This document shows positions 25,040-57,388 of a stretch of 64,000 bases of DNA, piece by piece. Source of the stretch: Streptobacillus ratti (GTDB lineage Bacteria; Fusobacteriota; Fusobacteriia; Fusobacteriales; Leptotrichiaceae); contig NZ_LKKW01000001.1 in assembly GCF_001891165.1 (NCBI RefSeq), positions 1 to 64,000 on the forward strand, read 5' to 3'. How positions within the stretch are numbered: position 1 is the stretch's first letter; every line of letters begins with the position of its first letter. The position numbers and the translations under genes were made by a program. The notes under the pieces were generated by a model. It did not search any database. It had not been told where the DNA came from and was given only the letters and a program-made list of their open reading frames with translations.

Positions 25040-25272
25040 ATACCTAATAACGAGATAGAGGTGCAAAATTCAATAGTAGAATTTAGGAGCTAGTCAAGGC
25101 TGTGATTAAATTTTAAAGGGGAAATTGCCGAACTTATGTATATGACAATTACATAGGTGGGATTACAAATAATATTTGTAATACTGTCATTATAGAATAT
25201 AATGTTGTGCTATTGGTTAAGTATATCGAATATTTTTTATACTTACTGATAGAATACTATCAGTTTTTTTTA
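25039..25272 (+). promoter_or_regulatory. Lysine riboswitch (L box) with transcription terminator
   Basis: Core features of the lysine aptamer are readable: GATAGAGGTGC (25054-25064), AGGAGCTAGTCAAGGCTG, AAAGGGGAAATTGCCGAA, ACTGTCATTATAG and the closing GTGCTATTGG (to about 25217), with P1 halves near 25039-25050 and 25211-25226. A terminator (ACTGATAG at 25245-25252, CTATCAGT at 25257-25264, then eight T) ends just before the RBS of the transporter. Lysine binding would stabilise the terminator form and shut off uptake when lysine is plentiful. An alternative pairing of TAAGTATA (25219) with TATACTTA (25238-25245) overlaps the terminator stem and could be the antiterminator. Confidence 0.88.
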
Positions 25273-25289: not shown

Positions 25290-26822
25290 ATGAAAAAAAG
25301 AATTTTATTATTTATTTTATTAATTTATTCTAGCTTTTCTTTAGGTATGGATAAACTTAGAGTTGGAATGGAAGCTGGATATGCACCATTTAATTGGTTT
25401 CAAAGTGATAATAGAAATGGAGCAGTAAAATTAAAAAATGGATATGTTGGGGGCTATGATGTAGAAATAGCAAAAATTATTGCTGAAAAACTTAATATGG
25501 AATTAGAAATAATACAAAGTGATTGGGATTCATTATTAGGTCCAGCATTAAATTCCGATAAAATAGATGTTGTAATTGCAGGAATGTCCCCTACCAAAGA
25601 AAGAAAAGAAAATTTAGAATTTACTAATCCATATTATGAATCAGATTTAGTAGTAGTTGTAAAAAATGATTCCAAATATTTAGATGCTAAAAATATAGAA
25701 GAATTTTCTAATAGTAAATTAACAGCTCAGTTAAATACTTTTCATTATACTGTATTAGATCAAATAAAAGGATTAAAAAAAGAAAATGCGAGTGAAAATT
25801 TTTCTAATATGTTAGTAGCATTAGAATCAGGTAAAATAGATGGATATGTTTCTGAAAAACCTGGAGCTTTGTCAGCTAAGATATCTAATCCTAATATATC
25901 ATTTGTTGAATTTGATGAAGATAATGGATTTAAATACAATAGAGATGATGTAAATATTGCAATAGCCTTAAAAAAAGGTAATACTGAACTTAGAGATAAA
26001 ATTAATGAGGCATTATCTGAAATTTCTTCAGAACAAAGAGAAGAAATAATGAAAAAAGCAATAGAAACACAACCTAATCAAGACTCAAATATATTGCCAA
26101 CTAATTTTTCAGCTTGGATAAAATATTTTATTGTTAATTATTGGAAAGACTTCTTATATGGAACATTAACAACAGTTAATTTATCTTTAATAGGAACTTT
26201 TTTTGGATTTATTATTGGATTAATATTATCTTTATTAAGGGATGAAAGAAATGTTAATAAGAAATCATGGATATCAGTTTTCATATATACTATTTTTAAA
26301 TATTTTGTAGAAATATATGTTACATTTATTCGTGGGACACCTATGATAGTTCAAGCTATAATATTCTATTATGGATTTTCACAAATAACTGGAATAAATA
26401 TTCCAGCATTGACATCAGCATTAATAATAGTTTCATATAATACTGGTGCATATATTACTGAAATAGTTAGAGGTGGAATAGATTCTATTGAAAAAGGTCA
26501 ATATGAGGCAGCACAAGCGTTAGGTATGAGTCATTTTAATATTATGAGAAAGGTTATACTTCCTCAAGCTATTAGAAATGTAATGCCATCTGTTGCAAAT
26601 GAATTTATTATTAATATTAAAGATACTTCTGTTCTATTTTCTATAGGAGTTACAGAATTATTTACTACTTCAAAATCTATAGTAGGTTCTCATGTGAGAT
26701 ATTATGAAGTGTTTGTTATAACATGTGCTATATATTTTGTTTTAACTTATTCATTATCTAAATTATTTAGATATTTGGAAAAGAAGATGGATGGAAATAA
26801 AGAATATGAAATTGAGGGATAA
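25290..26822 (+). CDS. Lysine-type amino acid ABC transporter, fused substrate-binding protein and permease
   Basis: 510 residues. A signal peptide (1-18) precedes a periplasmic SBP-bac-3 domain to about 265 ([38 protein letters not shown]). A HisM/GlnP-type permease runs from about 280 to 500 with an EAA loop ([24 protein letters not shown]). The lysine riboswitch upstream supports lysine as ligand. It pairs with the ATPase that starts 3 bases downstream. SBP-permease fusions of this type occur in Firmicutes and Fusobacteria. Confidence 0.9.
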
Positions 26823-26824
26823 AT

Positions 26825-27556
26825 ATGAATATAATTAAAGTTGTTAATTTAAAAAAGAGTTTTGGTAAAAGAAGTATATTAAAAGGAATAAACTTTGAAG
26901 TAAATGAGAGTGAGGTAGTTTCAATTATTGGTTCTTCTGGATCAGGGAAATCAACTTTATTAAGATGTTTAAATTTACTTGAAACATATGATGAGGGTAG
27001 TGTACTGTATAAAGATATAGATATAAATGATAAAAAAATATTACTTAACGAATACAGAAGTAAAGTTGGAATGGTATTTCAGCAGTTTAATTTATTCAAT
27101 AATTTAAACGTACTTGAAAATTGTATGTTGGCACAAGTTAATGTTTTAGGTAGAACAAATGAAGAAGCTAAGGAAATTGCAATAAAATATTTAGAAAAAG
27201 TTGGTATGGATAAATTTATTAATGCAAGACCAAATCAATTATCTGGAGGACAAAAACAAAGAGTTGCAATAGCAAGAGCTCTTTCTATGAATCCAGAAGT
27301 ACTATTATTTGATGAACCAACATCTGCTTTAGATCCTGAAATGGTCGGAGAAGTTTTAAAAGTTATGAAAGAATTAGCAGAAGATGGTTTGACAATGATA
27401 ATAGTAACACATGAAATGGATTTTGCAAGAGAAGTTTCTGATAAAATAGTATTTATGGATGACGGAATTATTCTTGAAGAGGGTAATCCAGATGACATAT
27501 TTACCAATCCTAAAAATGAAAGGACAAAAGAATTCTTATCGAGAATATTGAAATAA
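26825..27556 (+). CDS. Amino acid ABC transporter ATP-binding protein (GlnQ/HisP type)
   Basis: 243 residues. Walker [11 protein letters not shown]-loop [17 protein letters not shown], signature [16 protein letters not shown], Walker [15 protein letters not shown] and switch [13 protein letters not shown] are all intact. It energises the fused permease encoded just upstream and shares its riboswitch control. Confidence 0.93.
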
Positions 27557-54764: not shown

Positions 54765-54793
54765 TTGTAATTTATACAAATATATGATAATAT
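54765..54793 (+). promoter_or_regulatory. Promoter of the metNIQ leader
   Basis: TTGTAA (54765-54770) and TAATAT (54788-54793) with 17-base spacing. Transcription would begin about 25 bases before the leader peptide ATG. Confidence 0.5.
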
Positions 54794-54823
54794 AGCTTTA
54801 TAGCGATTTTGGAGGATAAAAAT

Positions 54824-54871
54824 ATGATAAATAACGTAGTTACATTTGAAATGAATATGATGCACATGTGA
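54824..54871 (+). CDS. Methionine-rich leader peptide of the metNIQ operon
   Basis: A 15-codon ORF, MINNVVTFEMNMMHM, with GGAGG (54811-54815) eight bases upstream of the ATG. Four of the last six codons are Met (10, 12, 13 and 15). Directly behind lie alternative RNA structures and a terminator, then metN. A ribosome would stall in the Met codons when Met-tRNA is scarce. The peptide itself is probably just a sensor. Confidence 0.8.
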   Translation: MINNVVTFEMNMMHM

Positions 54872-54958
54872 TAAAGCTTGTATCTTTTGGGTACAAGCAG
54901 TTTGTGTTTGTGCCTCGAATGTAACTAGTTAAGTCAGGCACTAAAGCCTGACTTTTTA
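54837..54958 (+). promoter_or_regulatory. Translation-coupled attenuator (terminator/antiterminator) of metNIQ
   Basis: Three stems can be drawn. (A) 54837-54849 in the leader ORF pairs with 54915-54927 (13 bp, one G-U) and encloses a 9-bp hairpin (54876-54884 with 54890-54898). (B) The antiterminator GTGCCT 54910-54915 pairs with AGGCAC 54936-54941. (C) The terminator AAGTCAGGC 54931-54939 pairs with GCCTGACTT 54946-54954, loop ACTAAA, then TTT. B excludes C, and A blocks B because its 5' strand is enclosed. Stalling at the Met codons would block A, allow B and permit read-through into metN. Confidence 0.75.
54931..54958 (+). terminator. Attenuator terminator before metN
   Basis: 9-bp stem AAGTCAGGC/GCCTGACTT with loop ACTAAA followed by a T-run. 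The start codon of metN is 20 bases further on, after AAGGAGG. Confidence 0.85.
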
Positions 54959-54973
54959 TTTTAAGGAGGAATA

Positions 54974-55951
54974 ATGTCATACTTAACAATAGAAAATTTA
55001 AGTAAAAAATTTAATGAAAAATTAGCTGTTGATAATATTAACTTAGAAATATCAAAGGGAGAAATATTTGGTATAATTGGTTTATCAGGTGCTGGAAAAT
55101 CAACCTTAATTAGAATGATAAATAAGTTGGAAAGTCCTACATTAGGAACTATTTTTCATGAAAATAAAGATATTTTTAAATTTAATGATGTAGAAACTAG
55201 AGAATATAGAAAAAAGACATCAATGATATTTCAAAACTTTAATTTATTATCATCAAGAACAGTGTTTGAAAATATAGCTTTACCTTTAGAAATATCAAAA
55301 TTTTCAAAAAATGAAATTGATAAGAAAGTAAATGATTTACTTGTATTAGTTGGATTAGATAAGTTTAAAAATGAATATGTAAATAATTTAAGTGGAGGAC
55401 AAAAACAAAGAGTAGCTATTGCAAGAGCTATTTCTACAGATCCTGATATATTATTGTCAGATGAATCTACTTCAAGCTTAGACCCTATAACATCTAATTC
55501 AATATTAGAATTATTAAAGGATATAAATAGTAAGTTGGGAATTACAATTATTTTAATAACACATCAAATGGAAGTTATTAAAAAAATATGTGATAGAGTT
55601 GCAGTTATGAAAGATGGAAAGTTAATAGAAGTGTCAACTGTAAAAGAGTTATTTATGAATCCTAAAACTAATTTTTCAAGAGAATTAATAAGTGATTTAA
55701 AAATAGAAGTACAAAAAGGAAAAGAAAATACTCTTAGTTTGATTTTTGATGGAGAACAGGCAGATAAACCATATGTTTCAGAGCTTACTAGAGAATTTAA
55801 TTTAGATATTAATATATTGGGTGGTTCAATAGACACATTGGCAAGTGGTGTTAAAGTAGGACATTTAAATATAAGTATAGAAACAAATAATATAGATGAA
55901 ATAATAAATTGGTTAGAAAATGTTGGAATTAAAGTAGAGGTGGTAAAATGA
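54974..55951 (+). CDS. metN: Methionine ABC transporter ATP-binding protein MetN
   Basis: 325 residues. Walker A GLSGAGKST, signature [14 protein letters not shown], Walker B DILLSDESTSSLDP, and the C-terminal NIL domain (about 245-325; INILGGSIDTLASGVKVGHLNISIE) typical of MetN, which senses methionine and inhibits transport. Four-base overlap with metI. Imports methionine into the cell with MetI and MetQ. Confidence 0.95.
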   Translation: MSYLTIENLSKKFNEKLAVDNINLEISKGEIFGIIGLSGAGKSTLIRMINKLESPTLGTIFHENKDIFKFNDVETREYRKKTSMIFQNFNLLSSRTVFENIALPLEISKFSKNEIDKKVNDLLVLVGLDKFKNEYVNNLSGGQKQRVAIARAISTDPDILLSDESTSSLDPITSNSILELLKDINSKLGITIILITHQMEVIKKICDRVAVMKDGKLIEVSTVKELFMNPKTNFSRELISDLKIEVQKGKENTLSLIFDGEQADKPYVSELTREFNLDINILGGSIDTLASGVKVGHLNISIETNNIDEIINWLENVGIKVEVVK

Positions 55952-56592
55952 TTATTAAAGCGATATTAGAAACTATATATATGATATTTATTTCAATAAG
56001 TATAGCAAGTATTATTGGATTGCCATTGGGGATTTTGCTTTCTATTACAAAAGAGGGGTCTATTTCAGAAAATAGAACTTTAAATAAAATTCTTGATTTG
56101 GTAATAGTTAATATAACAAGATCTATACCATTTGTAATTTTAATTGTACTTTTAATTCCATTATCAAGATTGATAGTAGGTAAATCATATGGTACAACTG
56201 CATTCATTATTCCTTTATCTATAGGAACAGCACCATTTGTAGCTAGAATTATAGAAAACTCGTTAAATGAAGTTAGTTATGGTTTAATAGAGGCAGGTAT
56301 TTCAATGGGAGCGACTAATAAAGATATAGTGTTTAAGATATTAATACCTGAGGCAATACCTTCAATAATTAATGGATTAACTTTAACTTTAATTTCACTT
56401 GTTGGTTTTTCTGCTATTGCGGGTATAGTTGGTGGTGGAGGATTAGGCAACTTAGCTGTTATTGAAGGATTTCAAAGAGGTAATTATAAATTAATGTATT
56501 TATCAACATTTATATTGATAATCATGGTTCAAATAATACAATTTGTTGGAACTAAAATAGTAAAATTTATTGAAAAGAAAAGAGGTAGATAA
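55948..56592 (+). CDS. metI: Methionine ABC transporter permease MetI
   Basis: 214 residues, five membrane helices (about 5-28, 48-72, 80-98, 140-165, 185-205). The EAA loop GLIEAGISMGATNKDIVFKIL is typical. Overlaps metN by four bases (ATGA). Confidence 0.93.
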   Translation: MIIKAILETIYMIFISISIASIIGLPLGILLSITKEGSISENRTLNKILDLVIVNITRSIPFVILIVLLIPLSRLIVGKSYGTTAFIIPLSIGTAPFVARIIENSLNEVSYGLIEAGISMGATNKDIVFKILIPEAIPSIINGLTLTLISLVGFSAIAGIVGGGGLGNLAVIEGFQRGNYKLMYLSTFILIIMVQIIQFVGTKIVKFIEKKRGR

Positions 56593-56593
56593 T

Positions 56594-57388
56594 ATGTTTA
56601 AAAAAATAATATTAGCATTATTAACATTTATTTTAATATCGTGTACTGGTGGAAAAGGGAGCGATGAAAATACACAGAAATTAGTTTTAGGAGTTTCTCC
56701 AATTCCACATCAAGAAATAGTAGAATTTATTAAAGATGATTTAAAAGCTCTTGGAGTAGACCTTGAAATAGTAGTATTTAATGATTATGTTCAACCTAAT
56801 ATATCATTAAAAGATGGAAGTATAGATGCTAACTATTTTCAACATATTCCATATATGGAATCATTTGGCAAAGAAAATAATATAGATATGGTTAGTGCAG
56901 GAGCAGTGCATTTAGAACCTTTAAAAGCATATTCAAATGTAGTTAAGGATATAAATGATATAAAGGAAAAATCAGAAATTTTAATACCCAATGATCCTAC
57001 AAATAGAGGAAGAGCTTTATTGTTATTAGATGCTTCAGGTTTAATTAAATTAAATAGTAGAGAAAAATTAGATGCAAATATTTCTGATATTATAGAAAAT
57101 CCTAAAAATTTAGTAATTACAAGTTTAAATTCAGAACAAATAGCACCAAGATTATCTGAGGTTACACTAGCAATTATTAATACAAATAATGCTTTGGCAT
57201 CAGGTATAACAGGAGATAAAGCTGTAATAATTGAAGATAAAAATTCGCCTTATGTTAATATAATTACAGTTTTAAAAGGTAAAGAAAATGATGATAAAAT
57301 ACAAAAATTAATTAAGGTATTACAAACAGATAAAGTAAAACAATTTATAATTGAAAAATATAATGGAGAAGTAGAGGTTGGATTTTAA
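56594..57388 (+). CDS. metQ: Methionine-binding lipoprotein MetQ (NlpA family)
   Basis: 264 residues. The lipobox LTFILISCTGGKGS puts the lipidated Cys at residue about 18. The NlpA-family signatures KLVLGVSPIPHQEI, QPNISLKDGSIDANYFQHIPY and LIPNDPTNRGRALLLLD are clear. ATG 56594 follows AGAGGT. It anchors to the membrane and delivers methionine to MetNI. Confidence 0.93.
   Translation: MFKKIILALLTFILISCTGGKGSDENTQKLVLGVSPIPHQEIVEFIKDDLKALGVDLEIVVFNDYVQPNISLKDGSIDANYFQHIPYMESFGKENNIDMVSAGAVHLEPLKAYSNVVKDINDIKEKSEILIPNDPTNRGRALLLLDASGLIKLNSREKLDANISDIIENPKNLVITSLNSEQIAPRLSEVTLAIINTNNALASGITGDKAVIIEDKNSPYVNIITVLKGKENDDKIQKLIKVLQTDKVKQFIIEKYNGEVEVGF

Follow-up and report, generated by a model that had tools for sequence, protein, structure and literature searches.

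The metNIQ operon of Streptobacillus ratti lies behind a leader that is very probably a ribosome-mediated transcription attenuator, which senses charged elongator Met-tRNA and controls the operon. The leader was found in a stretch of 64,000 nucleotides (the window: positions 1 to 64,000 of contig NZ_LKKW01000001.1, assembly GCF_001891165.1). Textbook leader-peptide attenuation covers several amino acids, methionine being associated with SAM riboswitches, T-boxes and MetJ. We consider it likely that this leader belongs to the first comparatively supported ribosome attenuator built on Met codons, one in which SAM sensing has been swapped for Met-tRNA sensing and the response to starvation is bell-shaped. 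The elements of the leader and the operon are the following:

54765-54793, + strand: probable promoter, read from sequence (-35 TTGTAA at 54765-54770, 17-nt spacer, -10 TAATAT at 54788-54793)
54811-54815, + strand: GGAGG, Shine-Dalgarno sequence of the leader ORF, likewise placed at all ten sites compared
54824-54871, + strand: leader ORF (ATG...TGA), encoding MINNVVTFEMNMMHM*, with four internal Met codons at 54851, 54857, 54860 and 54866
54837-54849, + strand: stem 1, 5' arm, TAGTTACATTTGA, inside the leader ORF; pairs with 54915-54927, with covariation
54862-54869, + strand: stem C, 5' arm, GCACAUGU, the last Met codons; pairs with 54904-54913 of the switch segment
54876-54882, + strand: segment 1, GCUUGUA, 5' arm of hairpin A
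54889-54898, + strand: segment 2, GGGUACAAGC, pairs with either segment 1 (hairpin A) or segment 3 (hairpin B)
54904-54915, + strand: segment 3 (the switch), GUGUUUGUGCCU, with three partners: the ORF end (stem C), segment 2 (hairpin B) and segment 4 (antiterminator)
54915-54927, + strand: stem 1, 3' arm, TCGAATGTAACTA
54931-54941, + strand: segment 4, terminator 5' arm AAGUCAGGC (54931-54939); AGGCAC at 54936-54941 doubles as the antiterminator 3' arm
54946-54957, + strand: segment 5, terminator 3' arm and U run, GCCUGACUU
54974-55951, + strand: metN, methionine ABC transporter ATPase with a C-terminal NIL domain (best NCBIfam model MetN, under the equivalog cut-off; NIL above the Pfam cut-off)
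55948-56592, + strand: metI, permease (model score 205 bits against a cut-off of 212)
56594-57388, + strand: metQ, substrate-binding lipoprotein (NlpA lipoprotein PF03180, 266 bits)

Scores of MetN and MetI below the strict NCBIfam cut-offs are as expected for diverged members, and the best models, the NIL domain and the NlpA lipoprotein family agree with the earlier designation of metNIQ as the regulated operon. Neither MetE nor MetH was detected in Streptobacillus or Oceanivirga by the models used, so methionine import should matter in these bacteria; a MetE-like protein is present in genera g2 and g11. Elsewhere in the window, a lysine riboswitch (25048-25220, 98.7 bits) is located upstream of amino-acid transporter genes encoding a fused substrate-binding/permease protein (25290-26822) and an ATPase (26825-27556), presumably a lysine importer.

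To see how the element is distributed, metN homologues were gathered from all 33 genomes of the window's family, and the attenuator element was present at ten sites in nine genomes and four genera, every one directly 5' of metN. All four genomes of the window's genus, and members of three further genera, have a Met-rich leader ORF with a Shine-Dalgarno sequence ahead of metN. The family and 65 more genomes from the phylum were searched with a covariance model built on the 60-position core, which recovered nine sites (E 1e-13 to 1e-16) and that of the second metN of genome G030 (34 bits), with a single match in the window genome and no convincing match in the 65 other genomes. Covariance-model matches outside the family and the sub-threshold ones inspected (L048, L061-L063) lie within coding sequence or resemble it. 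When 85,000 genomes were scanned for the pattern, S. notomytis and Oceanivirga miroungae matched, the remaining matches looking like chance occurrences in coding DNA. Nine of the ten MetN proteins group together in one clade (99/97); the last is diverged and falls elsewhere in the tree. It is encoded by the second metN of G030 (locus L047, G030:C322:2926-4042, minus strand), is 45% identical to the first, carries its own ABC and NIL domains and is preceded by its own attenuator copy (MKNLVVVNVMMMHT), and thus the element has become linked to two methionine transporters within one genome.

The window ORF contains four internal Met among 14 codons (P = 1.4e-4, at a window Met frequency of 2.0%). 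The ten leader peptides are MINNVVTFEMNMMHM, MINKVVTFKMNMMHM (two sites), MINIVVILKKKMMHMY, MKFAITLMMHM, MKKFAKNMMMDM, MQFTTNFMMMYMCLSL, MNNYALTLMMMYMCR, MKYTTTFMMMHMYT and MKNLVVVNVMMMHT. They hold three or four internal Met in 10–15 codons against a background of 2.0%, with P values from 5e-5 to 3e-3 that come from related sites and should not be combined by multiplication. All ten sites keep AUGAUG unchanged and in frame, so that the Met codons expected among orthologues are indeed kept; the remaining peptide residues change, and usually four internal AUGs are retained. The distance from the start codon to the core is 33, 21, 24, 27 or 30 nt, every value a multiple of three, as are all length changes of the leader ORF, whereas the lengths of the noncoding 3' arm of stem 1 do not keep to multiples of three. 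From these patterns we infer that the leader ORF is probably translated. The leader transcript would start at ~54800, and relatives have similar TTG..-TATAAT boxes in the equivalent position (e.g. TTGACA-17-TATAAT at locus L009).

Base by base, the window contains the 15-codon Met-rich ORF of the original prediction and the three pairings described there. Stem 1 consists of 13 bp, one of them G-U; the antiterminator pairs GTGCCT (54910-54915) with AGGCAC (54936-54941) over 6 bp; and the terminator pairs AAGTCAGGC (54931-54939) with GCCTGACTT (54946-54954) over 9 bp, with a T run behind it. Terminator and antiterminator share one arm ahead of the first operon gene, and the terminator with its U run lies 17 bases 5' of the metN start. 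Pairings that had not been described are hairpin A (54876-54882 with 54892-54898); hairpin B (54889-54898 with 54905-54915), which is the alternative to it; and stem C, which in the window includes the Met-codon region 54862-54866 paired with 54909-54913. Two alternative pairings among these would, according to the folding model, complete a three-state switch. The folding energy of the window leader is -51.8 kcal/mol, whereas shuffled versions average -31.7 (z -5.5; none of 200 shuffles equalled it). Across 54876-54915, hairpin A is followed after 10–12 bases by UUUG(C/U)GU...G, a layout that resembles the hairpin-stabilized RNA polymerase pause sites of trp and his leaders. It is plausible that hairpin A is a pause signal, which might synchronize ribosome and polymerase.

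In the proposed switch, the ORF of a ribosome-free RNA would pair downstream, with stem 1 and stem C forming around hairpin A, so that GUGCC would be sequestered and the terminator would form. When Met-tRNA is scarce, a ribosome would stall once a Met codon occupies its A site. It would hide stem 1 and stem C at their 5' arms but spare hairpin A; GUGCC would then pair with the terminator GGCAC, and transcription would run into metNIQ. When Met-tRNA is ample, a ribosome at the stop codon would cover segment 1, segment 2 and GUGCC would form hairpin B, stem 1 would re-form in most species and the terminator would form again.

To model these states, we masked a 30-nt ribosome footprint in nascent RNA that still lacked the terminator 3' arm. 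In the ribosome-free RNA, stem 1 forms and the antiterminator probability is 0.00–0.01 across the ten sites. With the A site on the first core Met, the antiterminator reaches 0.71–1.00 at nine sites and hairpin A usually stays intact; when the stop codon occupies the A site, hairpin A is covered, hairpin B reaches 0.98–1.00 and the antiterminator falls to 0.00–0.01. Stall-only antitermination in the model is thus clear at nine of the ten sites and weak at the window. There, the antiterminator reaches just 0.34 with the A site on the first core Met, the weakest of the ten, because the window's own hairpin B is unusually stable; the value ranges from 0.01 to 0.82 across the footprints tried, 0.82 being obtained with a larger footprint. 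Only 6 of 600 shuffles switched as strongly as the real sequences, five of them from the set of the window sequence. Once the full terminator is present, equilibrium folding favours it in most sequences even with a stalled ribosome, and antitermination must therefore act kinetically, as attenuators are generally held to do. From the model, we infer that stalling at the Met codons would couple the leader to methionine.

In several species the antiterminator is also favoured by stalling at any early codon of the ORF, and in these the specificity consequently rests on the codons. The same behaviour suits a sensor of a general slow-down of translation, or of initiation with fMet-tRNA itself, in place of elongator Met-tRNA, and a single methionine pool feeds both kinds of Met-tRNA. 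We nevertheless regard such a sensor as very unlikely: if initiation fails, the RNA carries no ribosome and is predicted to terminate; the internal Met enrichment at every site would be left unexplained; and at L006 and L009 the antiterminator wins essentially only at the Met codons and their neighbour.

The comparison among species backs stem 1, which joins the first half of the ORF to the stretch that follows GUGCC, most strongly. Its arms have wholly different sequences between genera and retain their complementarity. Since MAFFT misaligns these arms, which share no sequence, covariation was assessed by permuting duplexes across species: each sequence's own pairing averaged -14.2 kcal/mol against -6.7 for permuted pairings, and none of 20,000 permutations was as good. 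With one sequence for each of seven lineages, the true pairing ranked best of 5,040. In the core helices, the last codons (GNAYAUGU) pair with GCGUGUGC in 94% of cells (stem C), and GGUACAAGC pairs with GCGUGUGCC in 100% of cells (hairpin B). The L047 leader, in which the final AUG has become ACG, retains a stem C that is stronger. In hairpin A, hairpin B and stem C, changes are confined to one side and double compensatory changes are absent; this is expected of segments with two or three partners and is weaker evidence than that for stem 1. The covariation looked for in the alternative stems is therefore strong for stem 1 and takes the form of constraint with one-sided changes in the core.

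The core sequence is conserved beyond plain pairing, as would be expected if GCUUGUA..GGUACAAGC..GCGUGUGCC were a riboswitch or T-box-like RNA that binds SAM, methionine or uncharged tRNA, the ORF being incidental. The presence of two or three partners per segment explains this conservation, Rfam gives no family match to the leader, and an untranslated RNA needs neither Met codons that hold their frame upstream of the paired region as their neighbours change nor length changes in multiples of three; we judge a ligand-binding RNA very unlikely. The other mechanism that deserves little credence is nascent-peptide arrest of the TnaC type, in which an MMxM peptide would stall the ribosome on free methionine, SAM or a drug and not on uncharged tRNA: the C-terminal MMxM is the best-conserved feature of the peptide, lying at the end of the leader ORF at all ten sites despite five ORF lengths (as MMHT in the L047 copy, where the final Met is Thr), but x varies among His, Tyr and Asp as RNA pairing requires and not with peptide chemistry, no peptide conservation exists N-terminal to MM, and the stop lies 0–4 codons past MMxM depending on the species. 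A ribosome-based sensor of Met-tRNA, as originally predicted, thus remains the best explanation of the leader, which has come through the checks on both the Met codons and covariation.

Established methionine controls have a different distribution. In the sister family Fusobacteriaceae, SAM-I was found at 18 of 18 metN loci tested, directly upstream of metN in 17; small ORFs found before metN there, which were considered as Met-rich leaders, lie inside SAM-I riboswitches. In the window's family, 22 of the 33 genomes have SAM-I, one per genome, placed before metK in all ten inspected. The SAM-I model (RF00162) has no match at the leader and none in the nine attenuator genomes; the two other genomes without SAM-I are 82% and 86% complete. 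The T-box model (RF00230) likewise has no match at the leader or in the attenuator genomes, and a MetJ repressor was found in none of the 33 genomes (the E. coli control was positive). It is likely that SAM sensing was lost and that control of metNIQ passed to Met-tRNA. This would be a datable case in which SAM-I control of metN was replaced by another RNA control on orthologous genes, and the ten diverged examples form a compact set for testing alternative stems in standard laboratory strains. The leader also raises the question of how a ribosome sensor works when the sensed amino acid also starts the sensor peptide. Since methionine is needed to start the leader, starvation should lower fMet-tRNA too and, when severe, halt leader translation; RNA without initiation would stay ribosome-free and terminate, and a bell-shaped response is predicted. 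The rarity of methionine attenuators may be due in part to this constraint.

Other genera of the family carry a different conserved leader ORF (L087, L088, L089, L090 and L094), located 5' of metN itself or of a nearby operon for a polar amino-acid ABC transporter, near the middle of L087-L090 and at 1479 of the reverse complement of L094. Its peptides are MKRFREAMCMS, MKRFREAMHHHR, MKRFRESMCSHRC, MKRFSESMCHHR and MKRFNGLMCYHHHHMTFVSLY. A stem between the ORF start and a 3' arm, a hairpin and a terminator follow the same layout as in the Met attenuator, and four of the five show a similar stall-dependent switch at codons 8–10 (Met, then Cys or His). These leaders resemble an attenuator family that senses sulfur or histidine and whose control codons can be exchanged, and they may be related to the Met attenuator.

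In the openly searchable literature, the one methionine leader peptide found before metNIQ is metL of Streptomyces lividans, and the accessible text of large RNA-motif surveys covering Fusobacteria makes no mention of a metN element. The original statement that no methionine attenuator is established was therefore nearly right, the exception being this one unsupported proposal. The S. lividans metL peptide (MSTTSDRTPATEATTTPGARCMCRRMCAF) contains three Cys besides two internal Met, its authors describe no typical terminator and unclear termination, and, as far as the accessible part of that paper goes, comparative evidence is not given (PMC8079986). In Streptococcus, a uORF with a terminator before fthC was suggested to respond indirectly to methionine, via initiator tRNA and the speed of initiation and not via Met codons (PMC11109978). 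The SAM-I riboswitches of Fusobacteriaceae and the Met T-boxes of lactobacilli also control methionine genes, including metN, by premature termination, but they respond directly to SAM or uncharged tRNA, translation playing no part, and are absent from the attenuator genomes. The closest likeness is with the trp, his, leu, ilv, thr and phe attenuators of Proteobacteria (E. coli trpL, Salmonella hisL), which share a short ORF rich in the regulatory codon, a mutually exclusive antiterminator and terminator, and termination both under no translation and under full translation. Unlike these, the metN leader uses Met codons, methionine being also the initiating amino acid, controls an importer and sits in Fusobacteria, and no sequence relation was detected. 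Its chain of alternative pairings resembles that of Salmonella hisL, and the metN leader has every computationally testable feature of a trp/his attenuator.
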